Shown: positions 15,963-40,325 of the stretch, one piece after another
Numbering within the stretch: the stretch's first letter is position 1
Layout of the letters: every line of letters starts with the position of its first letter
Notes under the pieces: generated by a model
What the model saw: only the letters and a program-made list of their open reading frames with translations
Database searches by the model: none
Told to the model about the DNA's origin: nothing
Position numbers and translations under genes: made by a program
Source: Auricularia sp. M13
Taxonomy: Eukaryota; Basidiomycota; Agaricomycetes; Auriculariales; Auriculariaceae
NCBI GenBank assembly: GCA_037042915.1
Contig: CM073202.1
Location: 3,286,001 to 3,350,000 of the forward strand
Reading direction: 5' to 3'
Length of the DNA stretch: 64,000 nt

Positions 15963-16561
15963 TGGTGGAGATTTCTTCGAATAATCACGGTGTGAATGCC
16001 ACTAGAGCGGCATGAGGATGGGCGGCCTTTATAGGCGAAATCTGTTGTGGCAAAGAATGCACGGAAGTTCCTTTCTCTGCAGGTATCGGGTGGCACACCA
16101 ACGTTGCAAATGAGTCAGGCAGGCGGAGCCACCTCGGGCTGACATCTGGAAGTTATATAGTAGATGTAATGCCATCATGAGTGCAATCCCCCCACTAGAC
16201 CTCCTACAATGAGCACTTGATATCTCAGGCCGGACGGGCACTTAGCACTGTGTATCACAGGTCATATTCAGTGATATCGCGGCTTGAGTCCCTTCACCGA
16301 GGCCATCAGTGCTAGCAATCGTCTATCCCTGTGCTATCTTTACGAAGCACTGTTCTATTCCCTTCATCTCCAGAGATGCAGCCATCCGTGCGATATCCCG
16401 TGAGATAGTTTAAATATTTGTTCTGGGGCAGAGTATCTTCTGAGCTACACAGTGATATCGTCCTATCTCTGGTGCTACGATGCTTTCGTACAAATTGCAC
16501 CAAGTCTCACACCTCTGTTATAGTCGCGAGTTCCTGTGAGGACTCATCAAATCCCCCCCAT
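15963..16561. other. Promoter region and left margin of the KDZ block
   Basis: The left half is the CVNH promoter. From about 16250 the sequence is rich in words related to the KDZ-block motif (CAGTGATA at 16269-16276 and 16450-16457, GTATCACAG at about 16250). I take this as the left margin of the composite transposon. No gene. Confidence 0.45.
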
Positions 16562-17059
16562 ATGGAGCTGCCCCCGACCCCTTCTCTATCATCGAGCACG
16601 CCGCACACGCCCGACTCCACACCCGACTCACGCGCACCCAAGCGCTCTCGCAGTCCCTCAGTGGCCTCAACAGTGCTCGACGGCTCGATGTCCACGAAGC
16701 GCTCTCGCAGTGCCTCTGTTTCAACTGCCGTTGACTCGGTCCACGACCCCGAAGATCCCGTGCCCGAGCGCTTTCCCTGGTTCCGCGCCGCCTTACGGTC
16801 GGGGAGAACGTACGAAGGCCCAGCGTTCTCAAACGAGGATCTCGTCAAGTGCCGCGATTGGTACAATGACATGGTTGAAGGACGCGCGCCGGCTGCATTG
16901 CAGAAGTGGGATACGGCCCATAAGGAGCTCGACGCACTCTTCGACGAGCTCAGCGAGCTGGAACGGCGGGAGAAGAAACACCTGCGGCAGATCAAACGCC
17001 TCACCGCGCTCTGCAACGCGCTTGAGGCTCAGCTCGCGGCGTTGCAGAAGTCCCCTTAG
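16562..17059 (+). CDS. KDZ cargo: small protein with C-terminal coiled coil
   Basis: An intronless 165-codon frame from ATG 16562. Residues 1-60 are Ser/Thr/Pro-rich with two basic patches (KRSRSPS, KRSRSASVS), likely disordered and nuclear. Residues 65-100 contain FPWFRAALRSG and VKCRDWYNDM. Residues 105-165 form a strong amphipathic helix with heptad leucines (ELDALFDELSELERREKK and LCNALEAQLAALQ), a predicted coiled coil. No catalytic motif. It sits at the left margin of the KDZ block, 220 bp from the 3' end of the big minus-strand cargo gene. Similar design (disordered start, coiled-coil end) recurs in the genes at 22977, 24383 and 31136, so these may be structural partners. Function unknown. 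Confidence 0.65.
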   Translation: MELPPTPSLSSSTPHTPDSTPDSRAPKRSRSPSVASTVLDGSMSTKRSRSASVSTAVDSVHDPEDPVPERFPWFRAALRSGRTYEGPAFSNEDLVKCRDWYNDMVEGRAPAALQKWDTAHKELDALFDELSELERREKKHLRQIKRLTALCNALEAQLAALQKSP

Positions 17060-17281
17060 ACTACGTATGCACTGTGTTCCTTGAATGTCAGATGTCAGGC
17101 CGTTGCTGCAGCCATAACCCTCGGTCTCCGTTTCACACCGCTTGCACTCAACACCACTTAGTAAGAGACTCAGCGATTCAGGTTCACTTGTTCATTCAAA
17201 GTAAGATCCCATCGTTCATTTGAGTCTTTCTGTCGTAAGCTCCTATTTGCACAGCAATATTGTCTGGTAAGTAACAACGGG

Positions 17282-20200
17282 CTAAGACCCTGCATTCCCG
17301 GTCCACGGGCCCATCAGTGCCTCCTCCCAACCAGTCTCCGGCATCGCGAAGTCCCCGAGGTTGCCCTGTGCACCAAACCCAGCGTGTGCGGCCGCCTGAT
17401 AGAGTGCCGACGCATCAGGCACACTCTGAACACCATACCCGCCGTATTGTTGCGGCTGTTGCGGCGCCGGCGGCGGGACGCTAGGTCCGGGGGCTGCTCC
17501 TGCACCATACGCGTAGCCTTGCGCTGGCGCATGCTGCTGGTCGACGTTGCCGTATGTGTACGGCTGCTGCGGCGGGTGCTGCGGCGGCGCGGGCGCCTGC
17601 TGCAGCTGCTGCCGCTGCTGCTGCTGCTGCAGTACCGGCTGCTGCTGCGCTAGTGGCGGCGCGGGTGGCGGCAGTGGCGGCGCGGGTGGCGGCAGTGGCA
17701 GCGCGGGTGGCGGTGCGGCCTGCTGCTGCGGGTGCCAAGGCTGTTGCTGCTGCGACGGCGGTGGCGGCAGCGACTGCTGCTGCAGGTAGTTCGATGGCTG
17801 CGGGCCGACGTTGCCGTACAAATACGGCTGCGGCGGCTGGTGTTGTGAGGACTGCTGCCCAGGGACTGTGTTTGCACCGTAGGCGAACCCGCCCGACTGC
17901 GTCTGCGCCGCAGGAAGTCCAGGTAGCGATAGCAGCGCCGCGTTGTGAACCGACGGGTCGGTACCGCCGCCCGTGCTGAATCCGTAGCCCCGCTGCTGCG
18001 CCGACGACGCCTGACTCGCTTGATGCGTCGATGGACCAGGTGCAAGAGCAGTGCCCATGCCGAATGCGTAGCCCTGCTGCTGCGCGGGAGGCGGCTGCTG
18101 CGCTGGCTGCGAGGGCGGCCTCGTGACACCGTTCCGAGCGCCATATGAATATGGCCCTTGTTGTGGCGCGGCTGGCGGGCCTTGCGGTACGGGACCTGCA
18201 GAGGTGCCATAATTGCTGCCACCGTATCCGTAACTGCCCTGGTGCAGCGACACTGGCGCTGGAGTTGGCGCCGGCATTGGAGTTGGCGCCGGCGCCGCAG
18301 GCTGTTGGTACTCCATGACTGAGAATGGAGAGGCATCCCGCGGCAGCGGGTGTGCAGAGGGCGTAGGCATGCGCGTGCTGACTGACGCCGCGCGCGATTG
18401 AGCCTGTCTGCCTGACAGCAGAGGGCCCGCGCTGAATGACTCCTACAGTGAGGTCAGCTCCTATGCAAATAGACACCGTTGTGCCACGTACAAGGCCGTA
18501 GTGGTCATGTCCACCGCCACCCAATTGCTCTTCCTCATCGTCGACCTCGAGAACCTGCTCTAGAGCCGGCTTCTTGCGAAGACGCCAGCCGTCGTCGTCA
18601 CCATCGGCCCGCTTGCGCTTGTCTTGCACGCGAGAGCTGGACGTTGTACCCATGTTGCTGCTGCGGACACTGCGCTCGCCGTCGCGGTGCATGCGGCGGT
18701 TGTCGCCAGACCCTTTCGTGCGCTTGCGCTGCCTCGCGTCATCGTCGTCGTTGCCCTGGCGCTGGCGATCCTTCTTCGTCGCAGCCTGGCCTTTGCTGCG
18801 ACGCGCATTGCGCTGGAATGCGTCGCTGCCGTCGTCGTCGCTGCCGCTACGAACCCAATCGCCCACATCGCCAGCTGGCTTGCTGGGCTCGACCTCGCTC
18901 GCGCTTGAGTCGTCCGTGTTCGAAAGGATGGCCTTCGACTTTGCGGCGCGTTTTTTGCTCTTCGGCGCAGGCACCTCGTCTTCGCTCTCGGCAGAGTTGT
19001 CGGTATCAGAATCTACCGTCTGCTCCTTTGCTGCACGTTTCCCGCGCCTCTTCCGGGAAGCCTCGTGCTCGCTCGCGTTTGAGTCCTCGTCCGCCTCAGA
19101 CACAGCTGCCTTGGATTTCGGTGCGCGCTTGGACTTCTTCTTGGTCTTCACGGGTTCGGATGCCTTGGTCTTCTTGGTGCCGTACACAGGGATGCGCTTT
19201 GCGAGAGCCTCCCCGCGAGCCGCGCGCGCAGCAGCGGCATGCTCCCGGATCGTCGCCAGCCTCTGCTTCGTCTCGCGAGGGGCTTTCTTCTCCTGCTCCT
19301 CGAGAACCTCCGCGACAGTTAAGAGGACATCACGGTCCGTGTTCAGCCAGAGCGGCGTGTCGAGCCAGAGTTCGAAGTCGCCCTCGAGTTCGCTGAGCTC
19401 GTAGGAAATAGCGACTACAATTTTTGTTGAGTTCCACAGCAAAGCTCCAACAGATACATTGTACGCATACGCACGTTTACTCAGCGGCACGGCCTTTGGA
19501 CGTTTCACGTCCGGATCCTTGCGTTGGAGGCTGTCGAAAAATACATAGGCTGCGCGGGCCATACGTGTGGACCAGACGAGACTCCTGCCCTGGTCGATAA
19601 TGTCGAGCTGGGGCGGCCAGTCCTCGATGCAGACCTTCTGCTTCAAGCACTGGAGGGGCGCGTTGACCCAGTCGACGTCTGAACCGTGTGTTTTCAATTC
19701 GGCACCTATCCGTGCGGCCTCGCGTCAGTCGCCGCAACAGATGTGTAGCGTGCGAGTACATACGTTGCCAGGCTGAAACAAGTGGCGGGATGAGCTTGCG
19801 CACGACCCTCTGGTCGATTCGCTTGACGTTGTCATCCGTCGGTCGCGGGGCTTGGGTCGCTTCGTCTGCGGTTCCGGTTGCTCTGCCAGAAAGAACGGTT
19901 GTCAGGGTGCTGGCACGCGCAAGGACACGCAATGCTCACATTGCCCACGCGCTGACGTATCCCAAGACCTTGCTCAGCTCAGAGTGGTTCTCGGTGACGA
20001 TCTTGTTGAGATCAACACCGCAGGCCCAGAAACAGTTCGCCGCTTGTCCTTTCAGGTCTCCCGGCACAGCGCATACAATGCCGCCGAACGTAACGATGTT
20101 GTACAGCATGCGGTACCGCTCGCACTGTCGCGATTACAGCGTGAGACTCGCTCTCACGCCCATGCAGCAAAAGTACTCACGGTCTCCAACAGCTGCACCT

Positions 20201-22224
20201 TGAGCTTCAACATCGCTTGGTACACCTCGCCGCGGCCGACGACCTCTTTCGCGACCTCTTTGTCGTAAAGCGCCGTCCATTTGATCAGCTGGGCGCGCAG
20301 TTCTTCGCGACGGTCTTGATCCATGGGTCCGACTTCGTCGCGATAGGCTTTGACGAAGCGTCGCACGTACGCAGAAAAAGACTCTTGTTATGAGAATTGC
20401 ATCAGCTATCAGATGGTGTTATGGATACATCCACATACCTCCTTCCAGGGGCCGGTTACGCGCACACCAGCGCCGCACAAACATGTTGTAAAGGTTCGCG
20501 CCCCGTCCCAATATGTTGGAGAGCCCGGTCATGGCCCAGATGACACGCTCAGGCTTCCTGAGCTCGACCGCCAGCTCGCGCACCTGAGCCTTGAAGGCCT
20601 CGACCACGTCCTCGACGCGCTGGCGGTCCTTCTTGCTGACCCGGCCCGGTTTGGACTTGACGCGTTGCCCTTTGCCTGCTGCTGCGCCGTCTGCAGGAAC
20701 AGTGCTCTGCGCTTCATCGCCGGCCATGCCTTGGTCGCCTTCGTCGTCGCCAGCAGGATCTTCGTCGCCGTCATCTGCGATGTCGTCACCGCCTGCAACG
20801 ACCTCGTCCGCAGTGCTGGCGCCGGCTTCGCGCGCCTCGCGCTCCTGTTCGTCGGCACGCTCGCGCTCGAGCTCACTCGTGAACTGTTCTGCCAGTAGCC
20901 GGAAAGACTCTGGCAAGTCCGCGTCGTCTTCGTCCCAGCCGTTCGACAGGGCATCCTGCGGGTTGAACTTGTCCTCGTCCTTGCCGGTGTCGTCCTCAGA
21001 ATCGGGTAAAAAGAGTGCTTCTCCGGCAGCTGCCTTGGCAGCGGCCGCAGACGAGGTCCCGGCGGTGCTGGACCCGGCGGCACTGGACGCGGTGGCTGCA
21101 GATGCAGTCAAGGACGCGGCGGCGCTCGTCGCGGCTGTTTTAGACGCGGTGGTGTTGGACGCGAGGGCGCTGGACGCGGGAGCTGCCTTGGAGGTGTCCG
21201 CCAACGAGGACGAGGCGGCGCTGGAGCCCGCGGCTGCAGACGAGGACGCGGCGGGTTTGGACGCGGCGGCGTTGGACGCGGCGGCGTTGGACGACGTGTA
21301 GGCGTCCGCCAACGAGGACTCGGCGGCGCTGGAGCCCGCAGCTGCAGACGAGGATGCGGCGGCATTGGACGCGGCGGGTTTGGACGCGGCGGCGGCATTG
21401 GACGACGATTTCTTCGACGATTTGACTTTGGGCGGGTCGGCGGGAGGGGGGACCTTGGTCTTCCCCACTTTCGTGGAATTCTTGCCGGCTTTTGCGCGCA
21501 CGGGTGCTGGAGCTGGGTCATCGTCCGCGGCAGCTGGACGGCCAGCGGCAGACGACGCGCTGGCGTCGGTAGGCTTGGTTCTGGCGGCAGAGGAAACACC
21601 AGCGGCAGACAAAGCGCCTGCGGCAGGGGCAGACGAGGTAGACGAGCCCCCAGCATCGCCCTTGCGAGCTTTAGCCGCGCTGCCGTCACCCGCTGGTAGG
21701 GGGCCGGCGCCTTCTCCCCTGACAATCACAGGATGTGCGGGCAGGTGCGTGCTTGCGCGACGCTCAGGAGAAGCGGGCGGCGTAGACAGAGGCGACTCAA
21801 TCTCCTGTGGCTCACGGGGACGTGTCCGCTTTGGTGGCGTGGTGACCGCGCCCATGTGCAATGGGTCCGGCTCCATGTCGCTGATGTCTTCATAGTACCA
21901 GTTTTTGTGTGCGAGATGATCAGGTGCGCCATTCCACGCCAGGCCGCGTCCTGAATCCTGGGAAATTATCAGCCTCACAGTCGGATTTTTCTCATAACAC
22001 GACAACGTACTGTCTTGGGAGCCGATAGAGCAGAACCCTTGGTATCCTTTCCCGATTTGTTACGCTGGGAACGTCGGGGCGGCGCAGCGGCAGAATGCTG
22101 ATAAAGTCGTCAGGGCTGCGTGTGCGAGAACCGACACATGAGCACTCACATCGTTTGCGGCCGAAGCTTTACCGTGCTTGCGGGTCGCTGCTGCGGCAGT
22201 TGACGACTCTCCAGGCTGAGGCAT
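17282..22224 (-). CDS. KDZ cargo: large multi-domain protein with aromatic-x-Tyr-Gly tail
   Basis: Minus-strand ATG 22224 (MPQPGESSTAAAATRKHG). Exons 22224-22150, 22097-22011 and ~21957-20440, then further exons, can be joined through GTGAGT, GTACGT and GTATGT donors in frame. The order is: basic N-terminus; a long Ala/Ser/Lys-rich region; an acidic region; a conserved-looking stretch (ERVIWAMTGLSN.., ANLYNMFVRRWCARNRP); YVRRFVKAYRDEVG; then YRMLYNIVTFGGIVCAVP and FWACGVDLNKIV, ending at SELSKVLGYVSAW; VDWVNAPLQCLKQKV; a Lys/Ser/Glu-rich nuclear segment (19300-18560); and a final exon (to TAG 17284) that is Gln/Pro-rich. That tail has about nine motifs such as YGYG, YSYG, FAYG, YLYG, YTYG and YAYG. 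I do not recognise the family; no TET/JBP or helicase motif was seen. Composition suggests a nuclear, DNA- or chromatin-associated protein (inference). Roughly 1,350-1,450 residues. Confidence 0.6.
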
Positions 22225-22976
22225 GTGGGTTGGTGCTGGGGATTGAGCGCGGGGTCGAGCACAATGGCCTGTACGGCGAGATGATTGGCGGTGAGGCGGC
22301 GAGCACGAGCGACAGTGCGAATGGTGGGGAAGTCATCCAGCACCAGAGATCTCAGTGATATATGCTCTGCAGAAGCCATTATCATCGGTGCTCGGGAGCC
22401 TGGCTGGCGGTCGCGCCATGCGTACCTGAAGGCCCGCAGAGATGATCAGTGACTTGGCCTCAGCAGCAACAATCGTATCATGGTGCTGAAGTCATTTAGC
22501 ACAGTGATTCGGCCAGTATCACTGTGCTAAGTCCTTGAGGAAATCATTTAGCAATTATCCTCGGATCACGCACCACGCTGCCTTGGTCACTCACATGATC
22601 CGGATCCTCACGCAGGGTACGCGTCCTGGCTGCCTCAGTTTCTCACCAAGGTCGGCTGAGACACGGGCAGCAGGCACGGTCCCAACTGCGAGCACATTGG
22701 AACAGCGGAAAGAGAGGCACTAAACATGTGACCAAACAAACTATGCTTGAATGCTATTACGACCGGAAGATCGTCGATGCTCGACTTGTGATGCCGCTTA
22801 ACATCTTATCACTGTGCTAATTGATCTTATCACTGGTGATAACTGCAGATTCCTGTTCTCACACGTGCAAACACCGGTGATCAACGGCAAGATGGATCCA
22901 GGCACCAATATCTGCAGGCCGGAACCGCACTCTAACTTCCTTACACTCCTTCCCCACCACTCTGACGTTGCTCTCA
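22225..22976. promoter_or_regulatory. Divergent intergenic region with KDZ palindrome cluster
   Basis: This region lies between the divergent starts at 22224 (minus) and 22977 (plus). It carries AGCACAGTGAT (22498-22508), TATCACTG (22517-22524 and 22807-22814) and TATCACTGGTGATA (22828-22841, palindromic except the centre). The placement suggests either transposase-binding subterminal sites or shared promoter elements of the cargo genes. Confidence 0.5.
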
Positions 22977-24378
22977 TGAGCGAGCACGCCTCCCCAGTTG
23001 CACGCCCATCGTCGGCTGCCAGTTCGGACGACTCCTCGCTGCCAGAGGAAATCATAGCGTGAGCCCGTCGCGGTCTGGATCTTGCCTTTGTATGTGCGCT
23101 CATAATTGCGACTAGTCAGCTGCTGGCTGCCAGCGCGTCAGAGCCGTGGAGAACGTGCGTACCTCCACACACTTTTCGCTATGTTTGAGGATTTATGCCC
23201 AACTATGCAGCCACCCGTGGACGCTCACCGACATTGCGCGTCTGCGCCCGGAGGACCGTCCCGCGTCATCTCCGCCCCCTCTCAAGGACGTCGACCGACC
23301 GCGGACCAGTGGCTGGTCGGAGGAGCCCCTTGAAGGAACCAGCGATCGACCCGTCGACCCCGTCTGGTCCTATGACGCGAGGGACTATCCTCTCAATTGG
23401 CTCAGGGCAGACGCGATTGCAGCAAGCCAGGCCTTTCAGACAGCTGTACGTGTCATCTCTGCGTTTCGTGCGCTTTGAAGCTGATCTCACGCTCAGTACG
23501 ACAGCGCTTTGCACTGGGGCGACCGTTTCAAGAGACTGGACCTGTTCTGGCACCGTGAGCACGACTATAACCTGAAAATGTACGGCCGCGGAAAACGGGG
23601 CGATATTGCTCCGTCCGAGGTGCACGACGCGCTCGACAACATCTTCGCGGCTCGCGATACGCCCCCTGCCTACACTAAGCTTGAGCTCTATGGACTGCAT
23701 GCTCGTTTGGACGCCATCTGGCTGCGGCACTCGCGTTCTCCATCCAGGTTACGCGTTGCTGTTCGCGACCTCCGGAAGAAAACCGAAGCGTTCAGCCTCA
23801 TGGAGAGCGTCTCGCTGGTGGAGGTCATGGCCGAGCATTGTCTGGTAGACTTCCGCGACGTTTTGATCTGGTAGGCACGCTGTGTTCTATTTGCTGCGCA
23901 ATGCTGAGCTTCTACACGCAGCATCGACCCCCGGGCCACTGTTCTCTACGGGCGCACAAGGGACTCGGACGGTGTCGCGCGCAGATGGAAGTCATTTGGG
24001 TATCATGGCTCCCCCATGCTTAATCCGCCGCCCAGGTCTCCGCAGGACGACGATCGGAGCGAGATCTCAGGCTCATCGGGCGATGAGGTTGAGGACCTCC
24101 CATACCCGCTCAGTCGTGCCGAACGGGCCTATCGCATTTACCGGCACGCTGGACGTGACTATGAGCGTGTCATGAAGGAGACGCTCGACTTGCAGGCCGA
24201 GACGGCTCGACTGAAGCAGCAGCTGGCTCTCGTGCGGGCAGAGACGGAGGGCCTGCGGCAGGAGTACCACGAGGCCTGCGTTGAGCGCGACAGGCTCAAA
24301 CGCACGCTCAAACACGCCGGGAGGGACTCAGAGGTCGAGTCATCGTTCTTCTATAGTCAACGCGAGCCTACATTTTAG
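22977..24378 (+). CDS. KDZ cargo: protein with acidic centre and C-terminal coiled coil
   Basis: ATG 22977 (MSEHASPVARPSSAASS). At least five exons join through GTGAGC, GTGCGT, GTACGT and GTAGGC donors. The product, about 400 residues, contains HPWTLTDIARLRPEDRPAS, WSYDARDYPLNWLRADA, SALHWGDRFKRLDLFW, KLELYGLHARLDAIWLRHS and VARRWKSFGYHGSPM. A highly charged helix follows (LDLQAETARLKQQLALV, EYHEACVERDRLKRTL), a predicted coiled coil. The junctions near 23060-23215 are the least certain. Its stop (24376-24378) is only 4 bp from the stop of the convergent gene at 24383. No known domain; the Trp-rich middle might be a small globular fold. Function unknown. Confidence 0.6.
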
Positions 24379-24382
24379 GTCA

Positions 24383-25217
24383 TTACATTTGTTGCCAAAT
24401 GAGATTCCCGTTTGCGTATGCTCTGGATAGCCCGTTCGAATCACGCCGATACAGAAGCTCAAGCTCTCGCAGCGCGCTACGGATGCGCGCTGCGCGCAGT
24501 TCAATCTCACACAACCGGCGCCAGCGTGTTCCCTCACGCAGGCATTGGTCGCCCTCCCGACTGTGTTCCTCGCGAACAGCCGACAGAGCCAGCTCCTGAA
24601 CGGCAGTTGTGACCTGATGGGCTCGGCTGAGACGCTCCTGCAGAGTTGAAAGCGGGTGCGAATTGCAGGCGAGCTTGATGGCTGCAACTGTGAATACAAC
24701 CCACTGCCCCTCGTCTGTGTCTTCTGAGCGCCAGTCGTTGAGATCGTCTTCCAGGGCTAGAGCGAGTTTATCCATGTCTGTATCGTTGCCGACAGTTGTT
24801 GCTCCATTGGTGAGCTGTGACCGATATGAGTCCAGTATGGTAGACACACTGCTAATATCACACCAGGCTAACCTTCAGAGAGTTCCCCAGCAGCGTCCAT
24901 GGAACTTCACCATCTTCCTGTACAGCGGAGGCTGCTGGTATTGGCGAAGGCGGTTTCGGCACTGCCGCTGCCTTGCGTGCCAGGCGATACTTCCTGACAC
25001 GCTGCTGCTCACGCTCTCGATTCCTGACAACGTGAGCATTCGTTTCGTGTACAGTACACTAAAGGCTTCCTTACCTCTCATAATATGCTCTTTTGCGTGC
25101 CTTTTCATCAGGATAGATTTTGGGCCGCCCGCGAACCATGGGTGTGAGAGCAAGTCAGAAACAAGGAACCACAGAGAGCGGAGATCGAGTTCTGAATCTC
25201 TCCTCATTCCTGTCATA
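24383..25217 (-). CDS. KDZ cargo: basic/coiled-coil protein of unknown function
   Basis: The last exon (TAA at 24385) encodes VSTILDSYRSQLTNG, an acidic segment (MDKLALALEDDLNDW), QWVVFTVAAIKLACNSHP and an amphipathic helix (LQERLSRAHQVTTAVQEL, then LRELELLYRRDS). Upstream, across a short intron (GTTAGC..TAGCAG), a frame with a basic run (REQQRVRKYRLARKAAA) joins in phase. A further exon may start at MTGMRRDSELDLRS (25217), joined through GTAAGG to an acceptor near 25018. The 5' end is therefore a model. It is convergent with the gene at 22977-24378, with stops 4 bp apart. No known domain; basic-helix plus coiled-coil content suggests a nucleic-acid-binding or scaffold role (inference). Confidence 0.5.
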
Positions 25218-25680
25218 ATTTTTGTGTTCAAATCGAATTCATTGTCGTCATATGCAGCAGTGGAACATCTAGAGACCACCAGACCCACCAGCAGTGCAGG
25301 TTAGCGCAACGCAAAGACACTGCGACCATTGTTATCCCTATTCTGTACGGACGGAATTCCAGTGTACGGACGAAATTCAAGCGTACGGACGCAAATCAGT
25401 TATCACAGTGCTGACCGTATCAACGCCCAGTATCAATGACTGTTGTATAGTGAGGACCGCAGGTGTACGTGAGGACACTGGTTTGTAGCTCTCACCAGTG
25501 TTTGAAGCTCTCTCTAACCAGTGGGAATACCGAGAGCCTCACTCCTGAGACCGTCGAGATGGGATAAGATGGCCTTATCACTGCTTCCCAAGTTTATCAC
25601 CGTGATAGCACAGCGGGATTGCCCGCGTGTCAACTCCGACACTCTTCCCGTCTTTCCCCGCAACCAACCATACCCCACCT
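25218..25680. promoter_or_regulatory. Putative promoter region of the KDZ transposase
   Basis: This region holds a three-unit 19-bp repeat (25345-25401) and KDZ palindromes: TATCACAGTGCT at 25401, TATCACTG at 25576-25583, and TATCACCGTGATA at 25595-25607 followed by GCACAG. The transposase ATG is 74 bp further on. The density of the motif right before the transposase start suggests self-binding or promoter function (inference). Confidence 0.5.
25345..25401 (+). repeat. 19-bp tandem repeat, three units
   Basis: Units start at 25345, 25364 and 25383, each beginning GTACGGACG followed by gaattc-, aaattc- or caaatc-like sequence. Spacing is exactly 19 bp. The array abuts a KDZ palindrome half-site at 25401 in the transposase promoter. 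Confidence 0.75.
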
Positions 25681-28600
25681 ATGAGCAAGCGGTCCGCACG
25701 TCTCAGGCGCAAGAGCGCCGCTGCCGCAGCACTCGCAGATGCTGCGCTTGAGGATTCGTCTGGAATTCGCCCGTCCAACAGTACAGGACCCGACCCGCAG
25801 TTCGCTCTGGTGCCCGCGAGTGATCTTCCAAAACGACGCAGGCCTTCTCACTTCCCGCGCCTTCCAAAGGCTCTCAGAGAAGCTGCTGATGTGTATCTTG
25901 GGGTCGGTCCGAACTCGAGATTCGGGCAGCGTTCAGACTTGCCCGTCCCGTCCGACAACACCCATCTTGACCCGCTCAGCGCACTCCTCCGAGTACCAGG
26001 CAACACCGAGTGGCAAGGTCTGGGCTTGTATCAAGTGCGGAATCAGACAGCACGTGGAGACGCGTCATCCGGCGACGAGTTCGACCACAACGGAATCGCG
26101 ATGGATTGGCAACCTTTGCTCTCGCGTCACCGCGCCCGCAGAGCTGCTCAACACGCTACATGGCTACATCATGTGATTCCTGGCCTCATTGAGCCACTTC
26201 TCGTATACATGCGCGAGGGTCCACGTTCCGGTCGCCCGTCGCCGTCGTCATGCGGATGCCTGGCAAGGCGTCAGCTGTCGGTGCTCCTCGCAGATTGGGA
26301 CCGTGAGTGACCATTCTCGACGCCGTACATTGTCTGACGACCCTGATAGGACATTCGACTGTCATTCTCAACATCTGTGACTGCCAGCCTGCAGCCTCCC
26401 AACTTCTCCGCGCTGGTTACTTCCCTTGCGCCCCAAAGCGCCCATCGGTCGCGTTCAGTCTTCAATTATTGGAGCTGATTTCTATCCATTCACTCAATGT
26501 TGCGCCCAACTCGTCCGCATGGGCTGATACGTTACATATGTTCTGGGAACGCCGTCGTCATGTCCTCAATACCGCGGTAAGTGAACTTCTCTGAACGCCA
26601 GTGAACTCGCAGCTTATGCTGCGGAACAGGAAAGTCTTCGAAAGCGGCTGGCAAACGCACTGCAGTGGTACCAAGTCCTCATGAATCGCACGGAGGCTCA
26701 CGTCAACGCTGTCATCTCAGGTTCATCGGCTTTTGCGGTGTGGGCAATCTAGCGCTGGCTGACAAAACGTACAGCAGCCGCAACGAACGGAACAGCAACC
26801 GCGACGGCCGTGCACGGTGCCGGCAGCAATGAACCTCAGACCTTGACCACCGCCGAACGACAGGGCAAGCGCGTCCGGGCGGCAAATTTTACAGTCGATG
26901 ATGATAGCGACCCGGGACAGCAACCGCGCGCCAAGCGGCAGCGAGGTCATAGCCAACGGCACGCGGGGCCCTCGGTTAGTATCATGTTCTTTGCGCGACG
27001 TAGTACAGGTTCTGACCGCACGTAGGCAGCAGATTCAGCGCACGCGCGAGGATGCCCAGCGAGTGGTGGGCATGCCGAGCGAGTCGTGGGCGTGCAGGTC
27101 GTCGCCGGCTCGCAGGTCGTCGCCGGCACGCAGCACGACTTTGACACAGGCGACGGGGACACGCAGGGCGACGCGCAGGGCGACGCGCAGGTCGACGCGC
27201 AGGTCGACTCGGACAACGCGCGCGTGCAGGGCGTCATAGGCTCGCAGGACCACTCAGATGCGCAAGACCACTCGGGCAACGCGGGCGCGCAGGGCAAGTC
27301 GGACAATGCGGCCTTGAGGGGCAACGCGCAGGCCGATGGGGACACAGACGGCGACGCGGGCTCTCAGGATGACACGCAGGCCGACTCGGGCGGCCAGCGC
27401 TCGCAGGCTGAGTCGGACGAGCAGGGCAACGACAATGTGGGCGCGCATGCCGATAGCTCTTCACGTGCGAGCCAGTTGCTCCAGCAACGCTGTCCCTTGT
27501 GCTTTGGCGGCACACGGCCAGACTTCTCGCATACAGAGTGAGCAGTTTCCGCACAAGGCTTCTGGTTACATCCCAGTTCTGACTATTCTCGAACAGGGCA
27601 CATGTCTTAGTATGCATCGACGCCAATTTCGCGCAGAAACGACGCAAATCAGCAGAGCCGGACCCGGACCTGACGTTCCTCGGCACAAGATTCCTGCCAA
27701 TCGAGGAAGTGCACGCGATGAAGGAGGAAGTGGAACGCAAGCGAAAACATCCACTCAAGAAGCGCGCCGCGAAGACGAACTCCTCCGTTGCTGACGACGT
27801 GTTGGATGAATGCGAAAAATCTTTCATCGCCGCGCAAGAATCGATGACAAAGGCGTCGAAGAACTACTACGCCGACACCGGGCTGATGGCGCTGCTCTGC
27901 CGCCACGATCGCGTCCTCTGGGTCGTCAACATGACGAGCGCCGGTGAAAAACAGTACTACGCTCTGGCTCTTCTCGACAGGCTGATGCGCGAGCTGCCCG
28001 AAGATTGGAACGTAGGGTTGCTATACGACATTGCATGCCAGCTGTCGCGCAGCATCGAGAAGGCACGTGCGTTCATTCCTATGCAGATGCAGACTGGCGG
28101 CTGACAGTGACGGGTATAGTTTGGATTTCTTGAGCGCTTCGCATCTCGCATGTCGTTTGCGGTCTCGGTCTTCCATGCGTACGGGCACCAGTGGAGTTGT
28201 CAGCTCGTTTACCACCCACGCAAGCGCGCAGGCTTCGGTCTTTCTGACGGAGAAGGATGTGAACGCTTTTGGAGCGCGATCCGCCGTCTCATCGCCGTAC
28301 TGCGAGTCTGTGGGGTATGTGCTACACAGGATGGATTCATCTGTCGAGACTGACGTGTCCGTATGCTAGTTTTTCAAGCGACTGTTTGTTCTCGACCGCC
28401 AGTTTGAATTCATTCAACGTGAAGGCCTGAAGAAAATGGGCAAGTGGCTGGCGCGCAAGTGGCGTGAGTGCATGCGCCGCATGCACAGCGCGGAGGAAGT
28501 TTTGTCTGGTTGCAAGTACGATGAGGCGACGCTCTCGAAGGAGTGGGAGGACCAGGTCAAATCCCAGCTCGTGAAACCAACGCGTAAGCCGAACAGCTGG

Positions 28601-30943
28601 TGTTCGGCGAGCATCTATTCATTGTCGAGTGGTTTTTGTCTGCACAGGCTATTCGAAGTATGCGGGGGACAAGGAGATCGACCGTATCCTGCTGGACATC
28701 GGGCGTGCTGATGACGCGTTTGAGCGGGTCAAGGCTGGCGAGGCCAAGCTGCGCAAGAAGGCAGCAGTTCTGACGCCCGCGGATTTGGACACGCTCACAA
28801 CTAGCATCGACTCCGGCCGACGCGAGGTCAAGGCTATTCGGGCACGCGTCAAATCGGCAACCGCTGCGCTCGGCGCGCAATCCGCGGCTCGCCTGCGCAG
28901 CTTGCGGGGCAACGCCTACATATGTGCGCGCGTAAATGCTCGAGCGCTACGTGCAAACATTCGCGAGGCTGTGCGAACACACAAGTTCGAGCGCGAGCGC
29001 TTGGAGCGCGCTTATCGGCGCCAGGTTATGCGTAAGTCGTCCTGAATTTGTTGCAGGTCTTTCTGACTTTGCCCAGAGAACAAGGAACACACGCAAACAC
29101 GGGACCTGGTGCACAAGCAGCAGAAGAAGATTACGGCCATGGTCAATCGTTTCAACAAGATAGTCAAGAAGATGGAAACACTCGTGAAGCAGGGCAAGGG
29201 TCCTGAGCGTCGAACGCGCACGCCGCGCCGCCTTGACGCAAAGGATCTATTCCGGCTCGACGTTGACGACAAGATTTGGCAAGAGGATCCTGGCCTCGGT
29301 GCGCAGGATGAGGACGACCTGCCGCGTTGGCAGGTGGATGACGATGTCCGCAACGGCATCCCCGCCATGCTGGAGGTCCAGCGATGCAGGGAGGAGATGG
29401 AGCGCCTGGAGGTCGAGGCGAACGCCCTTCATACCTGGTGGAACAGCGAACGCAACTTCTTGTGCAGCGTGAGGACCGGTGCGTGACGTCTCCCATGTTG
29501 TATATCACACTGACATGAGCTTCAGAGGGTTTATATGCTGCTGTGGTTGACGACAGGATTGCTTGGCTCAATGTTCTGGGCCATACCTGGAATCGGGACC
29601 TGGCGTCCGCAGGCTTTGCGGTGGTGTTCGAGGCGGATGGCGCGGCGCTACCGCTGTTGCGACAGCACAAGAGCCGCAGCTCAAGCCCACGCGATACCGA
29701 TCACAGGAACACACGGTTAGAGAACGACTCGAGCGACGACGACAGCGCGTTATGGACCGAAGAGGACGAGGATGAGCCGACTGCAGAACACCTCGACGAC
29801 GTGGCCGCCGCAGACTCCGAAGATACCACGCTAGACTCGGGCGGGGAGGACGACGGTGAAGTGTGGTCAAGCACGACCGCAGACGAGGGCGCAATCGTGT
29901 CGCCCCAGACAAAGGATGGTCGCGTACGATTTGTGTCGCATCCATTCTCTCGTGCGCCCAAGTCAGGCGCGTCGCACCGGCCGCCAACTGCGACTGCGCT
30001 GAGCAGGGAGACTGCAGATGAGGACGTCATTGTCATCGGCAGCAGCAGCAGCAGCTCAGACGGTGACGATATCTCAGAGTCGACCCCAGCGCGCGAGCCG
30101 GATCGGCGCTGTGGACCTTATTCGTGCACGGGACGGGAGGTGCTTCTGTTCGCATCCCGCACCGAGTGGGTCAGCGGCGACGGCTTAGCTGTTCTTGGCG
30201 AGGACTTCATGACCGGCGTGGACAGGATGCTCGTAGGAGTCGTGCCATCGACAGTGTATCGCGACGTGCAGGAGTACAGCGATTTGATGGCCAAGAAGAA
30301 TGTGGAGGGCGCGGCGAAGGTCCAGCAATGGATCGCGTCCAAGCTGACCATTGTGAGTGATGTTGCCCTTGATTCCGAATGCGGCACTCTTAACTCGGTG
30401 CAGGCTAAGGTGCCGGACCCGGAAACAGCAAGGAAGTGGCTGGTCGTGGTGCACGTCGAGCTCCCAAAGCACTGGACTCTCGTGGAGATCCGTTGGCACG
30501 AGCGCAGGCTGCGGTTCTACGATAGTTTTGCGACGCGCAATGGGTACGCAAAGGTAGTGAAGGCGCAAACTTATCTCTTCCTCCGTCTCTGCGAGATGAT
30601 ATACAAGCAGCACTTCCCGAAGGAAGAGTGGTTCTGGGAGGACGAGCAGGTACGCCAGACATCCCTGAACGCCCTATGCCGTCCTGATTAACATATCTGA
30701 TAGCGTGCAACTCGTCAGACCAACGGGTACGACTGTGGACCATTTGTCGCAGCCGACCTCGAGAGTCTTGTTCGATCAGATACCCCGAGCGACCTTCGGC
30801 AATCGGACATGCGCGCATGGCGAGCAAACCTCACGAGACGCCTGCGCGCACTGCCTGTCGACAGGAACGGCAAGTTGGAACGGCGGGCAGCAGCTCGGAG
30901 ACAGCTAGCGGATGGCGCGCATGTAATCAACATAGATTGTTGA
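25681..30943 (+). CDS. KDZ transposase with C-terminal Ulp1-like peptidase domain
   Basis: Starts at ATG 25681 (MSKRSARLRRKSAAAAAL). Exon 1 runs to 26302; intron 26303-26349; several more short introns follow, to TGA 30941-30943. In order: the N-terminal region; a CxC cysteine cluster (CGC near 26255 and ICDC near 26380, then RAGYFPCAPKRPSVAF), diagnostic of KDZ; LANALQWYQVLM; a basic/acidic linker with an Asp/Gln/Ala repeat (27086-27440); CPLCF; the RNase H-like catalytic core with CIDANF (first Asp), YDIACQ (second Asp), HAYGH, and DGEGCERFW (Glu); long Lys/Arg/Glu helices (28630-29470); an acidic Ser-rich linker (29700-30090); and a Ulp1/C48-like domain with KHWTLVEI (His), FYDSF (Asp) and QTNGYDCGPF (Gln, Cys). 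All catalytic residues of both domains are present. It should cut and paste the element; the peptidase may act on SUMO or process the protein (known only as an association in these elements). Introns near 26577 and 26730 are uncertain. Confidence 0.85.
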
Positions 30944-31135
30944 TGGTTAGGTCATACAGTCTTATCTTCATCGCTTACTACAAGATCAGTTACTACTTAT
31001 CTGGTAACTGATTCCAAACGTGTGAGTGCTATCACGGTGATAGCATTGTCTATCACGGTGCTAATGAGCGTTCAGTTCAGATTCATGTATTGCAGTGCGA
31101 ATGTGCAGGCTATGTGGACATCGGCTGACTCATGC
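30944..31135. promoter_or_regulatory. KDZ palindromes downstream of the transposase
   Basis: CTATCACGGTGATAGC (31029-31044) is palindromic apart from its central pair, and TATCACGGTGCTA follows at 31051-31063. They sit between the transposase stop and the stop of the minus-strand gene at 31136, so they cannot be simple promoters of either gene. That favours a role in transposition over transcription. Confidence 0.55.
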
Positions 31136-31919
31136 CTATGCGACGGTTGCGTCGCGCATGAACTGCGCGAGGTAGTCGAGTACTTCTGACGTGAGCGTGA
31201 GCTAAGAAGGACAATAGCAGGAGATCAATTAACTCACCTCGGACATTGACGGTGTGAGCTGGGATGTTGGGTGCCGGGATGAGCCTGTGACGAAGCTCAG
31301 TGTTGCACACGTTGCAGGTTGTGGAAAAACGTACTCGGGCAGACCGTCAGAATCCCAGAAGGCGTGCACAATCTCCAGAGGGTCTGACCTGTAGGAACCA
31401 GCCTGCAAATCACTGAATTTGCGTGCGGCCTCCTCGTATTGCAAGCGACGTCGCTCGACATGAGCGTCGTGCCACCGAAGGTCGGACGTGACACTAGGCG
31501 GCAATGAGAGACACCAGATGGAGAAAGGAAATAACGCACCCGGATTCAACGATGGGCAGGACAGCGCCCAATGCGCGAGCAAGGTTTTCAAGACGGACCT
31601 TGTCGGCCAAGTGCATGGCGCGCTCATAGAGACCATACGCGTTCGTGAGCTCTTGGTTTGCCCTGGCGAGCGTACGATCGCGCCGCAGGCGGTCGCACTG
31701 GAACAGCAGACCACCGAACTCTCTGCGGTAGCGATTGAGCTCGTCCTGGATCTTGTCGTGCTCCTCCATGACCTCCAGGAACGCGACGAGATTGTTCTTG
31801 CCCATGTCGTCGGCGTGCTGGCCTTGGAGGAGCCTGGCTTCTTCGAGGAGCTTGTGGCGCGAGGCCGGCGGTTGCGTGCGCAGCGAGGCAAGCTCGTGCT
31901 TTGTGGAGACAGTGGACAT
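31136..31919 (-). CDS. KDZ cargo: coiled-coil protein
   Basis: ATG 31919 (MSTVSTKHELASLRTQ). Exon 1 encodes a long helical region (LLEEARLLQGQHADDM, NLVAFLEVMEEHDKIQDEL, FQCDRLRRDRTLARAN, LYERAMHLADKVRLEN) predicted to be a coiled coil. A short intron follows around 31540-31490, then an exon with WHDAHVERRRLQYEEAARK and a small last exon ending LDYLAQFMRDATVA (TAG 31136-31138). A TATATA box at about 31957-31962 is well placed upstream for the minus strand. KDZ palindromes at 32006-32050 are upstream. About 220 residues; no known domain. It matches the coiled-coil style of the other small cargo genes. Confidence 0.6.
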
Positions 31920-32170
31920 GAGGGAGGAAGGGGAAACGCTGCTCCGCACGTGGAGTAGTATATAATGTGGTAGCCATCACGTGAGCCAGGGCTGCGGACT
32001 GTCTTAGCACAGTGATAGCAGGCGTTATCACAGTGATAGCACAGTGATAGGTGGCTTGATTTGGGGGATCGCCAAGACTAACAATCCGCAATTGATTCCA
32101 GCGTGAGATGATTCTCCGGCTCAAAGACCCTGGATTTGTATACCCGGAATACAAGGACGGTACAACGGAG

Positions 32171-32993
32171 TTAAGCTCTCACTTCTTCCTCCTTCGCAGG
32201 AGGCCCAAGCTGCTCGATCTCTTGGCTCTCATAACGAGCATAAGCTGCGGGTGAAATCGTTACGTGGAGCACATACTTGGAGCCTCGACGGCGACGCCGC
32301 CATGCGTCGACGTCAACGAGTCTGCAGTGAGACAGACGATGAACAGAATGAAATCCGCCCTGTGAGGGGGGCACGCACTCGGGCATTTCGTCGTCCATGT
32401 TGTCTACATCGAGGATGTCTCCGAACGTGATGTTGGCGTAGTGGTCGGTCGCCTCGATCAAGGCGTCCTTGGTCTTCTTGACGTTGAGAGCGCACCACCG
32501 CCGGTAGTACATAGTCTGCTTCTCACGGCTGAAAATCAATGAGATGAAGCAAGGGCGGTATTACGAAAAGACTTACGCCGAGGACCGCTTGATGAGCTCT
32601 TCCCAAGACGGGAACTCATCTTGTCCGGCGCTGCGGTCATTCAGTACTAGCAGGTCAGCACAGGTAGACATACTGCTGATTGGCGGCCGACGCCGGTGCC
32701 TCGTTGGGTGCATGCGGGACGCCCGAGGCAGTCGAGATCGCCGCGTGAAGGGCGGAGATAGCGTTTTCGACCCGCACGCGAGCCCGCTCGTGAGCGTACT
32801 CCTCGGTGAGAACGGCGACGTATGCTTCGGAAAGTGTCTCGAAAAAGCTGTCGAGATTGTCTTTATCGTCGTCACCGGTGTTGTCGGTCGCGGGCTCGAC
32901 GGGAGCGACGTCGCCGGTGTTGTCAGTCGCGGGCTCAACGGGAGCGACGTCGCCGGTGTCGCGCGGAGTGGGCTCAGCGGGAATGGCAGACAT
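32171..32993 (-). CDS. KDZ cargo: acidic protein with a duplicated 13-residue segment
   Basis: ATG 32993 (MSAIPAEPTPRDTG). Residues 10-40 contain two copies of TGDVAPVEPATDN, encoded by two 39-bp direct repeats (32881-32958). A helix follows (LDSFFETLSEAYVAVLTEEY, RVRVENAISALHAAI). After one or two short introns come QDEFPSWEELIKRSS, then TMYYRRWCALNVKKTKDAL, ATDHYANITFGDILDVDN and KYVLHVTISPAAYARY, ending KEEEVRA (TAA 32171-32173). The splice model between 32690 and 32530 is approximate. No recognised domain. As the rightmost gene of the block it is followed by a dense palindrome zone (33100-33410). Confidence 0.55.
32881..32958 (-). repeat. Two 39-bp direct repeats inside a cargo gene
   Basis: The units 32881-32919 and 32920-32958 differ at only two positions and encode a 13-residue repeat in frame. 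A recent in-frame slippage duplication is the simplest reading. Confidence 0.8.
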
Positions 32994-34575
32994 GAGGGTG
33001 AAGAGAGGCAAGATCAATCCCGAGCAGACGTACCTATATGCCAATGCGTTCATCAAGTTGGCGCTGATTGAGAGCGCCTTCGTGCCCCTGCAAGTGGGTC
33101 TAGCACTGTGCTGCGAGTCCGTATCACTGTGCTGCAGTTGATTATCACGGAGATATCTCTTGACTAAGACATTCTCACCGCAGGAGAGGGCGAGCACCGG
33201 TGCTAGATCTCGATTACTGGTGATATGTTCTTAGCACCGGTGTTAGAATGATCTCTAGTAAATCACGCCGCGTGATGTTGCTCGTCTCTGAATAGCACAG
33301 TGATACCGTGTGATATGTTCATGATCTCAGGGATATGGCTGTGATGCGTTGAATATCACGAGGATAGTGCGCTATCTGGGTGGATAGGGCGTTTATCTCA
33401 GTGATACAGCTGGGATTATGGATGATGGCCCAACCGCGGAACCGTGGATAGCACGTGCTGAGCCTGGGACATCTAAGAGGTCGATATCGAGATGACTGAC
33501 ATTGCATCTAGCGACCGCAAATGTATGGCAGCCTATGGTGGGCGGAGCTTACTGTATCGACGCCACAATGAAACGACTCTGTATTATCACGGAGAGAGAC
33601 CGTCGCGGCAGCGGATTTGAGTTTAACGGCCCGATCGCCTTTCGCTCTCTTCCATTGTACTTGCGACGCCTTTGAAAAGGTCACACCCCGCAATCAGTCC
33701 TTCTCACTGTGGAAAACGAGTTGAAAATCCCAAAAGGCGGAAAATGCCTTGAATATGGGTTGAAAATCCGTCCGAAGCATTTTCAACTTGTTTTCCAGCC
33801 GGGAAAACAAGTCAAAAAGCAGTGGCTGTGGGGTGTGAATCCCTCTACAGTAACGAGTGCACGTTTATGAATGCTCGTACAGCCTCATTGAATACTGCGC
33901 TCCTCTAGGGGCAAATGCCCCATTGCGCGTCTTCGCAGCGATTCCCGACGCGCTCGCGGGGCGCACGTATATAATCAGCGTCAGCCAATACCGCATGAAT
34001 TCCCTTGGTCCCACACGGCCCACTCTCTCACGCCTCGCCATATTCTCGACTATAGCTAGCAGCGGCGGCGCAAGCCTCGAGTCCTCTCCAAGTGAGCCTC
34101 ACTTCTTCACGGCTCCCCGAGGTTGCCGCCGCGTTATTTCAATTTGTCCACGCTCAGATGAACTAGAACATCAGCCAGGACGGTGTTCTGCGCCGAATGG
34201 GCATACTTACTGTACCCGAGACCTAGCGGCGCGCTCGCCGTTGCTGTTTATTAGCGTGGGGTCATTTGGCGACGCGGAGCAGATAGCGGCCTTGGAGCTG
34301 CATGCAGCCAGGACTCAGCAATAGGGCTTTGCATAGAATTCCTGCCCACTTGTAAACGCGTTTTAGAAGCTACCAGAGGTATAATGCTAGAACAGCCTGC
34401 GTCTATGTTGTTGCGTCGCGGTTAAATCGAGCTCCGATAGCTCCGCCTTTTCTCCGACCCCATTGCGCGGCAGCCGCCCGCATCCCTGCCGTAATGTGAG
34501 TACAGGCGCATTGGGAAGCGCGGAAACTGATGTGGTTGTACCATCAGGCCGCAGTCTGACAGTTCTATCTCGCGT
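32994..34575. other. Right margin of the KDZ block and intergenic sequence
   Basis: 33100-33410 is dense in KDZ motif variants (TATCACTG 33122, CAGTGATA 33298 and 33399, plus AGCACCGGTGCTAG-like words). After about 33480 the motif stops. 33710-33800 carries an imperfect hairpin (ggaaaacgagttgaaaat facing attttcaacttgttttcc). 33850-34570 holds no recognised gene. Confidence 0.45.
33712..33797. repeat. Imperfect inverted repeat, ~19-bp arms
   Basis: The left arm ggaaaacgagttgaaaat and the right arm attttcaacttgttttcc pair with one mismatch over about 18 bp around a 48-bp loop that repeats gttgaaaatcc. It could be a tiny MITE relic or a structured transcript. No target duplication is visible. 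Confidence 0.5.
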
Positions 34576-36000
34576 TTGAACACCGATGCCCTTGCTCTGG
34601 TCTTCAGCGCCGTGCGAGAGGAAACACCGTCATACAATCAGCGGACAGCGCTCCGGCCTCTTCTCTCGTTGACGCACGTATGTCGGAGCTGGCGCGCGCT
34701 GGCCTTGGCGCAGCCGCGACTGTGGACGGCGTTCTTCTGGGAGCCGGGGAACAACGTCGAGGCCGCACTAACGATTCTCGAGCGCTCGCGATCTGCGCTG
34801 TTGACCATGAAAATCAGCCTCGAGCCCAGGGACAATCCCAGGACGCCTGACGCACTGATTTCCGAGGGGCACGTTGTGTTTGCGGCCGCTGCGGCTCATT
34901 TCTGGCGGACGACGGACTTAACGCTGACATTCTCGGCGGTGAACATGCGTGCTGGCGCGCTATCAGTGCTGTTCTCAGACGCACCTTGTGCGATGCCTCG
35001 TCTTCGCAACCTCAAAATTACGCCGTCCGGACTCGGCAGAACGAGTATTCCCACGCTCAACATTGCGTGTCCACCATTGCATTCAGTTTCCCTCTCAAAA
35101 ATTGTACCGTCATCTTGGGGCAGCCTAGTCGGGCCGATGACCACAGTTATGCACCTTAAAAGGCTCTCCATTCGTGTTCGTGACCTGGGACGCATTCTCG
35201 AGGTCTCGGCTAACCTGGACGAACTCGGCCTCTTCTTTTGTAGCATAGACGACGATCGCGTAGGGTCTCAGACGGGCGCACCGATGGCCACGCGGCTTGC
35301 CAAACTTCATGTTTTCGGCCTGCAGTTGCGGGATCTCCTTCTTTTGCAGTCGCTGTCGATACCCATCGTGCCGATAAAGGAGATTACCTTGAACACCGTT
35401 TTCATGGACGTCCCGGCTGACGTTGCGTTCGATTTCCTTCGCATTGCCGACCTTATCGACATCAGGGAGCTGTTCATCAACGCGGACTCGCTCGCAGTCA
35501 CCGCTGCAGCAGACGTCAAGCGCATCATGGACTGCGAAATCCCCTCTCTGGACTTTCTGGGCGACTTGTTTTCCGCTGGCGCCATCTTGACAACCCTTCG
35601 CGAGCTCACCCTTTCGTTGGAGGTCTTTATGGATCTGATCATTTTGATCACCGCAGTGGTAGACGCGCCAAGTCTCCCGCGACTCGAGAAGATGACGCTG
35701 TGGGTCTCGCAAGCAGCGTTCGCGAGGGCGGACGACCACATGTACAACGGACCTCCCATCCTCGCGCCCAGCCTGACCCTTATCGAAGTCTTCCTTCACG
35801 GCGACGAGCTGCCCACCGCCGACCTTGTCTACCATTTTATCGCTTGCATGGTCTGCATCAGGGCCACTTCTCTGACCGATGCCGGTTTCAAGATAGCTGA
35901 CCGTCAGCATGGGGAGGGGGAAACGCATTTGCATCGGTTTGGCGAGCTTTTCCGCGAAGAGACGCGGAGACTCATGGAAGGAGTACCACATCAGCAATAG
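34576..36000 (+). CDS. F-box protein, type A (copy A3)
   Basis: A 474-codon frame ending in TAG 35998-36000. The F-box is at the start: NTDALALVFSAVREE.., SLTHVCRSWRALALAQPRLW. As in copy A2 the frame opens at a TTG and lacks a near ATG. A conserved GACAG acceptor at about 34561 in both copies suggests an upstream first exon not resolved here. The leucine-rich body and the C-terminus (LHRFGELFREETRRLMEG) match copy A2 closely. Early exon sequence is nearly identical by eye, with more divergence in the middle (about residues 130-170), so the pair may have undergone partial gene conversion or uneven selection. Predicted SCF substrate adaptor. Confidence 0.8.
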   Translation: MNTDALALVFSAVREETPSYNQRTALRPLLSLTHVCRSWRALALAQPRLWTAFFWEPGNNVEAALTILERSRSALLTMKISLEPRDNPRTPDALISEGHVVFAAAAAHFWRTTDLTLTFSAVNMRAGALSVLFSDAPCAMPRLRNLKITPSGLGRTSIPTLNIACPPLHSVSLSKIVPSSWGSLVGPMTTVMHLKRLSIRVRDLGRILEVSANLDELGLFFCSIDDDRVGSQTGAPMATRLAKLHVFGLQLRDLLLLQSLSIPIVPIKEITLNTVFMDVPADVAFDFLRIADLIDIRELFINADSLAVTAAADVKRIMDCEIPSLDFLGDLFSAGAILTTLRELTLSLEVFMDLIILITAVVDAPSLPRLEKMTLWVSQAAFARADDHMYNGPPILAPSLTLIEVFLHGDELPTADLVYHFIACMVCIRATSLTDAGFKIADRQHGEGETHLHRFGELFREETRRLMEGVPHQQ

Positions 36001-39835: not shown

Positions 39836-39845
39836 GCAGCGATTA

Positions 39846-40325
39846 CTGCCCTTTGCATAATATTCCGGACAGCTCCGAAAAAGAAAAAGCGGGCGGGGCC
39901 GACCGAACCCCCGACCAACCCAGCCCGGCAGACGGTAGCGACGGTGTATGCGCAGATACACGCAATCCAAGTACATGGCTGGCCTCGGGGAGGCTGGAAA
40001 CCTCTTCCGCGCAGCTTCTTTGAGGATTGGAAGTGCCGTTGCGGTGTGCTCGCCCGCCAGCCCTCCGGGCTGCGGTTTGAGCGGCATCGGCCGATTTGCC
40101 CAGCTCCGTCGTCGTGCACGGCGCAGACGGCGAGCGCGCCTTTTTAGCCAATTTTTCCGGCGGGATGCGTGTAGTATGGCGGTGCAGTGCTCCCTATGTT
40201 GTAAGCTAGCCTGCAGCAGGCGAAAATCGGTCGCTACTGCCTGCCGGGCGGTGTTCGTCGGGGGTTCGGTCGGCCCCGCCCACTTTTTCTTTTCGGAGCT
40301 GTCCGGAATATTATGCAAAGGGCAG
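39846..40325. mobile_element. 480-bp MITE-like element with ~105-bp terminal inverted repeats
   Basis: The left end CTGCCCTTTGCATAATATTC is repeated in reverse complement at the right end. Pairing continues for about 105 bp with few mismatches and one 1-bp gap (including the block ggcggggccgaccgaac). TA flanks both ends (39844-39845 and 40326-40327), suggesting a TA target duplication; a TTA/TAA reading is also possible. The interior has no transposase. It lies 10 bp upstream of the start codon of the F-box gene at 38363-39835. Nearly identical arms point to recent insertion. Confidence 0.85.

Follow-up and report, generated by a model that had tools for sequence, protein, structure and literature searches.

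A stretch of 64,000 nucleotides from the basidiomycete Auricularia sp. M13 (contig CM073202.1, positions 3,286,001 to 3,350,000, hereafter the window) contains a block in which the gene of a KDZ-type transposase lies among several other genes and recurrent copies of one palindrome. A sequence-only reading had described it as a composite KDZ transposon of positions 16250-33480 that carries six extra genes on both strands. The locus thereby raises the question whether the block is one mobile unit and which role its additional genes and palindromes may have. Our analysis shows that the block is almost certainly a single complete KDZ transposon, which has several relatives in the same genome.

Boundaries of the element and its relatives

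A search of the genome with window positions 16000-33700 yielded a colinear relative on the minus strand of contig C13, the right end of which is 84% identical to that of the window element. When the ends of both elements are aligned, the similarity breaks off abruptly at CACC on either side. The features at and around these ends, including terminal inverted repeats (TIRs) and a target site duplication (TSD), are:

16130..33540, no strand: whole KDZ element, 17,411 bp, with TIRs, an exact TSD and colinear relatives that have exact duplications of their own
16122..16129, no strand: left copy of the TSD GGCGGAGC, 8 bp
33541..33548, no strand: right copy of the TSD GGCGGAGC, 8 bp
16130..16145, plus strand: left TIR CACCTCGGGCTGACAT, 12 of 16 bases equal to the right end
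33525..33540, minus strand: right TIR CACCATAGGCTGCCAT, read inwards

The TIRs of the window element are thus imperfect (12/16 bases agree), and its termini read CA..TG. The combination of TIRs with a target duplication of 4-8 bp, by which KDZ elements are recognized, is present here, and both features had been predicted, the latter at about 8 bp. The block itself was also placed correctly, with a span slightly short of the true ends at 16130 and 33540. Distinct terminal repeats that would split the block into unrelated elements were not seen, and the term composite does not apply in its strict sense because this is a single element and not a segment enclosed by two elements. A chance cluster of genes was rejected on account of the exact target duplications. 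A search of this genome with the joined flanks for an empty copy of the insertion site returned none. The element is flanked by the arms of an inverted repeat (8351-9817 and 34546-36024, 74-89%), as if it had been inserted between inverted paralogous stretches.

Blocks with the same gene order occur elsewhere in this genome. The C13 element (C13:117615-133641, 16,027 bp) is bordered on both sides by the exact 8-bp duplication AGGCTCAC, and the C2 element (C2:3745663-3760489, 14,827 bp) by the exact 8-bp duplication AGCAAACA. The ends of the latter emerged when CACC..GGTG pairs were sought whose flanking 7 to 9 bases agree; a sole pair qualified from 70 left and 59 right candidates. Hence, an 8-bp duplication is present in all three elements with defined ends. 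Conserved coding blocks connect the window element with six other regions. When these were compared, the order of four cargo genes and the transposase (G1, G2, G3, G4, transposase) proved to be common to the window and C13 elements and, except for the missing G1, to C2. For the elements C4a, C7, C4b and C11, the CACC..GGTG flank scan gave no convincing ends. A freer end search in C4a, C7, C4b and C1 found none either, and is weak because it did not have the known ends of the window element and of C2 among the matches that it listed. C4b and C11 form a near-identical pair (C4:1163282-1174534 and C11:1708233-1724108, 98-99% over about 11 kb); two pieces of the C11 copy are separated by about 4 kb, and the palindrome arrays flanking the C4b genes are missing from this copy.

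The transposase and its cargo module

The genes of the window element were modelled with a small home-made splice model from sequence only, and the models are accordingly crude:

16562..17059, plus strand: G1, small coiled-coil-like protein, 165-amino-acid (aa) model, 3 loci outside the window
17282..22224, minus strand: G2, 1508-aa model with low-complexity arms and a conserved core, 15 loci outside the window, candidate palindrome binder
22892..24378, plus strand: G3, 433-aa model with invariant WHR and RGDIAP stretches, 8 loci outside the window
24383..25216, minus strand: G4, 241-aa model, 16 loci outside the window
25681..30943, plus strand: G5, KDZ transposase, 1527-aa model with CxC1/CxC2, KDZ and a C-terminal Peptidase_C48 (Ulp1) domain
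31229..31919, minus strand: G6, 214-aa model, weakly supported
32171..32993, minus strand: G7, 228-aa model, weakly supported

The assignment of the transposase to the KDZ type is borne out by a Pfam scan, in which the KDZ domain PF18758 scored 172.5 bits (cut-off 26.6), with CxC1 (38.0 bits, cut-off 26.9) and CxC2 (32.0 bits, cut-off 27.0) located N-terminal to it. The YDCG motif of the Ulp1 domain is present in six of the eight transposase models and was not found in those of C2 and C7. The transposase shares 60% identity with that of C13 and 52% with that of C2. The count of six extra genes on both strands agrees with our crude models, in which G1-G4 are backed by conservation and G6 and G7 remain weak, each resembling one relative. 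Manual alignment detected a G6-like model in C2 (36% identity) and a G7-like model in C13 (39% identity), and single-protein genome queries (E<=0.001) with G6 and G7 returned their own locus only. An RGRP stretch opens the G4 models of C13 and C2. A coding exon of G2 contains a 98-nt direct repeat in four copies (21036-21394), which encodes an Ala/Ser-rich arm.

To what extent the cargo accompanies the transposase can be read from single-protein genome searches (E<=0.001), which detected 3, 15, 8 and 16 loci of G1, G2, G3 and G4, respectively, outside the window, 42 altogether; as only the best candidates are scored in such searches, the copy counts are lower bounds. None of the 42 loci is more than 17.1 kb away from a same-clade KDZ transposase; the clade comprises 25 loci and was defined by DNA similarity to the element. 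For comparison, the regions up to 20 kb from one of the 95 listed KDZ loci amount to 7.0% of the genome; these 95 were hand-picked from 149 exon matches (150 of 163 candidates scored). A cargo match stands beside 19 of the 24 clade members other than the window element, and a cargo homologue away from KDZ was not found in this genome. The positions relative to the transposase recur as well: G4 is located at -2.65 to -3.27 kb in 13 of 16 cases, and 13 of the 15 G2 loci fall between about -5 and -9 kb. Since three colinear elements carry differing exact 8-bp duplications and all 42 cargo loci are close to a related KDZ transposase, the genes almost certainly travel as one unit, as had been proposed.

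The module is not rigid. G2 has the reversed relative orientation at five of its 15 loci (C4:369, C1:8690, C8:1729, C11:2275 and C1:4986), where G3 is flipped along in the four cases in which it was seen and G4 in three of the five, and in C4a transposase and cargo are arranged in another order. This variability would suit a local gene cluster built next to a KDZ transposase by separate events, an explanation that is hardly credible in view of the exact and differing 8-bp duplications at three sites, the right-end similarity of 84% that stops at the duplication, and the co-location of all 42 cargo loci with KDZ.

The ratio of nonsynonymous to synonymous changes (pN/pS) between the window and C13 elements is 0.34 for both the transposase and G3, 0.52 for G2, 0.56 for G1, 0.59 for G4 and 0.67 (0.48-0.90) for G7, and between window and C2 it is 0.85 (0.61-1.12) for G6; all these values derive from columns selected by local identity, a filter that lowers pN, and the synonymous divergence is near saturation. 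Judged by these ratios, G1-G4 look maintained and G6 not clearly so. We consider it probable that the products of G1-G4 are accessory proteins that serve the element and not passengers. The apparent purifying selection on G1-G4 also fits the earlier suggestion that some cargo genes may serve transposition or the evasion of silencing.

Palindrome arrays in noncoding DNA

The recurrent palindromic motif of the sequence-only reading corresponds to TAKCACNGTGMTA, which is present inside the window element in 9 exact copies and 16 copies with at most one mismatch, and inside the C13 element in 5 and 9 copies, respectively. With at most one mismatch, no copy was found in the flanks of these two elements, in 11 control pieces or in seven other element regions. 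All 16 sites of the window element and all 9 of C13 have their centres outside exons, which make up 0.74 and 0.75 of these elements. Six of the eight intergenic and terminal stretches, as modelled, contain sites; the convergent G1-G2 and G3-G4 stretches have none. In the window they are arranged as follows:

16324..16357, no strand: two palindromes close to the left end at a distance of 21 bp, with 1 and 2 mismatches
22348..22819, no strand: palindromes in the divergent G2-G3 stretch, in part at steps of 20/21 bp
25401..25607, no strand: two palindromes in the divergent G4-transposase stretch
31030..31063, no strand: palindrome pair between transposase and G6, 21 bp apart
32005..32049, no strand: three palindromes between G6 and G7, in steps of 21 and 11 bp
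33101..33406, no strand: six palindromes near the right end, three of them at 21-bp steps

Neighbouring copies often stand at steps of 20/21 bp. If up to two mismatches are allowed, the adjacent distances of at most 110 bp are 21, 21, 20, 21, 21, 11, 21, 21, 61 and 40 bp in the window element and 21, 20, 20, 20, 40, 20, 21, 20 and 61 bp in C13. Random spacing matched the observed periodicity in none of 2000 trials for either element. The spacers between neighbours at 20/21 bp have identities of 0.29 (window) and 0.32 (C13); because these intervening sequences are unrelated, the steps are not recent tandem copies, and tandem duplication was rejected as the source of the spacing in both arrays.

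At least five different palindromes occur among the elements, and the close pairs window-C13 and C9-C7 each have theirs in common. In C2 the palindrome is TGCTAGCA; 18 of the 19 copies of GCTAGC in 40 kb lie inside the element. C4a contains 12 copies of GATGCATC (4 in 149 kb of background) and C4b 42 copies of TGGCNNGCCA (6 in background), four copies of which are common to the C4b-C11 pair. C9 has 11 copies of TTTCNNGAAA, with 5 in control pieces, and C7 has 9 in the surrounding 30 kb, or 6 against 6 in background with its first span; both elements have some copies of TTCTAGAA as well. A dense array of TGGCNNGCCA lies beside C4b at C4:1161098-1161665, mostly in 32-bp steps. The palindrome spans of C4a, C7, C4b and C11 were set by hand around the genes, and those of C4a, C7 and C4b were later widened after sites had been seen, which raised their scores, so that all control comparisons use the first spans. 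On this basis the enrichment scores are 13.0 for the window element and 10.1 for C13. The top control score of 13.1 belongs to the right flank of C4b, which contains the tail of its array; four of nine elements exceed the controls if this piece is kept, and eight of nine if it is left out, the top control then scoring 6.6. Stronger evidence comes from the degenerate motif in the window and C13 elements, with 16 and 9 sites and none in the 11 controls. Phasing was matched by random spacing in 0.3% of trials for C4a and in 0/2000 for C4b.

Candidate binding proteins and known systems

Which protein, if any, recognizes the palindromes can be approached by comparing elements with the same and with different motifs. 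The G2 core is 75% identical between the window element and C13, which share the palindrome, and 33% identical between the window element and C2, which has another one; the corresponding values are 64% and 53% for the G3 core and 60% and 52% for the transposase. This sharp divergence of the G2 core along with the palindrome makes G2 the leading candidate. We favour, with some reserve, binding of the palindromes by a protein that the element encodes, and this protein may be G2, an identification that has less than an even chance.

Several points weigh against this reading. C1, the sister of C4a, is the one element of nine without an enriched palindrome, and C7 is marginal. Phasing does not exceed random expectation in C2 (15.5%), C7 (74%) and C9 (18.6%), and that of C4b partly resembles a 32-bp tandem repeat. 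The argument for G2 is drawn from a single branch, and the comparison of C9/C7 with C4a (G2 core 45-49%, different palindromes) fits no simple rule. In a Pfam scan of ten sequences, which were open reading frames and earlier, partly shorter cargo models instead of the final ones, no family reached its cut-off in the cargo, and a DNA-binding domain above cut-off was absent from G2, G3 and the scanned G1, G4, G6 and G7 sequences. Compared with solved structures, the G2 and G3 cores gave best E-values of 0.016 and 0.1 with unrelated molecules. A comparison of the two cores with Pfam named no relative either; each family was matched by one member alone (best E 0.00073).

The cysteine clusters CxC1/CxC2 and the presence of sites near both element ends would also be compatible with a transposase that itself binds the palindromes, subterminal and internal, through its CxC cluster or another part, with the cargo having different tasks. 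The palindromes are, however, also found in internal intergenic stretches, and between the window element and C2 the transposase alters little whereas the palindrome alters completely, which makes this explanation unlikely. Less likely still are sites of host transcription factors or neutral repeats spread by slippage, with no partner encoded by the element. The TTTCNNGAAA sites of C7 and C9 with some copies of TTCTAGAA, which we take to resemble a heat-shock element, and the 32-bp tandem array that makes up part of the C4b sites speak for this option. Against it stand the different palindromes in related elements of one genome, shared only by the close pairs, the unrelated spacers in the window and C13 elements, and the mild genome-wide over-representation of the exact window motif (29 copies versus 8 with the pattern reversed; the window element and C13 together hold 14 of the 29).

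The following mechanism can be envisaged. The KDZ protein would cut and paste the element. If the palindromes are indeed bound by a protein of the element, a dimeric element-encoded protein would occupy them such that adjacent dimers, spaced by about two turns of the helix, face the same side of the DNA. One bound protein might both gather the ends for transposition and keep the element promoters open against silencing, a dual role that is conceivable because palindromes lie near both ends and in six of the eight stretches. We consider it slightly better than even that this KDZ element is autonomous and that one protein of its accessory module binds the private palindrome arrays, in the manner of TNPA in CACTA and VANC in VANDAL elements. 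More speculatively, and in our estimate rather doubtful, a private address system could extend through the clade: each lineage would encode its own palindrome binder (one of G1-G4, perhaps G2), its intergenic and terminal DNA would be filled with a palindrome of its own, often helically phased, and protein and palindrome would change together, allowing self-specific anti-silencing and transposition without waking relatives, independently of VANC and TNPA.

The following comparisons draw on the accessible parts of the papers cited. Some fungal KDZ elements of the Kyakuja and Zisupton groups carry TET/JBP genes (PMC12730594). In Cryptococcus KDZ1-3 are active, KDZ1 having about 11 kb, TIRs of 241 bp and an 8-bp TSD (PMC12810828). 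The TSD of Zisupton is likewise 8 bp, and Kyakuja, as described for Laccaria families, is reported to have a 7-bp TSD, CA..TG ends and no TIRs (PMC12730594). The window element resembles these fungal KDZ elements in its transposase with a CxC cluster, its TIRs, its 8-bp duplication and the extra genes alongside the transposase. It shares the duplication length with Zisupton and agrees with Kyakuja in the CA..TG ends, whereas its 8-bp TSD and short TIRs set it apart from the latter. The present element differs from the known ones, as far as those texts describe them, by its size of 17.4 kb, its short TIRs, its module of uncharacterised proteins, its palindrome arrays and the lack of TET/JBP in the window. 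The absence of TET/JBP had been noted before: PF12851 gave 19 matches in the genome, 4 of them above cut-off, and none in the window, so that TET/JBP was rejected as cargo of the block. Three of the 19 matches lie within 20 kb of the nearest listed KDZ locus; one (C3:3544847) is about 17.7 kb from the clade transposase C3:3562557 and 9.3 kb from another KDZ. In the literature searched, to which the founding KDZ work did not belong, we found little on KDZ-carried genes beyond TET/JBP, and we do not claim the module as new.

In CACTA/Spm elements, short subterminal repeats, which differ from family to family, are bound by a TNPA-like protein that is distinct from the transposase (PMC2613891). 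The window element similarly has element-specific short repeats near its ends and a proposed separate binder; in contrast to CACTA, it has a KDZ and no CACTA transposase, and its repeats are palindromic and also internal. VANDAL elements contain arrays of short motifs such as YAGTATTAY in noncoding DNA, along with VANC anti-silencing proteins (PMC5735166, PMC10398659). Common to both systems are noncoding short-motif arrays that differ between related elements and, at least putatively here, an accessory protein with variable, repeat-rich regions. The VANDAL transposase is of the Mutator type. VANDALs are plant elements with other motifs, and the window element has a KDZ transposase. A placement beside TNPA/CACTA and VANC/VANDAL would denote functional likeness and not membership. 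Starships are large fungal mobile elements with many genes and a tyrosine recombinase. The window element is likewise a large fungal mobile element with many genes, but differs by its KDZ transposase, TIRs and 8-bp duplication, and no tyrosine recombinase Pfam match was obtained in the ten scanned sequences.

In mushroom genomes KDZ elements form a large group; KDZ and Plavaka together account for about half of the DNA elements of Marasmius oreades (PMC8290104). The present case adds a conserved cargo module whose tie to the transposase is repeated in many copies within a single genome. Should palindrome and protein indeed change together, fungi would offer a second natural series beside the Arabidopsis VANDALs for self-specific transposon control, and the palindromes are directly testable in vitro.

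Two further inverted duplications lie to the right of the element. The closer-spaced arms 37038-39811 and 50040-52454 are 86-97% identical in about 13 pieces, with about 10 kb between the inner arms. The arms 39842-39942 and 40230-40329 (91-96%) are about 290-400 bp apart and possibly belong to a small element.

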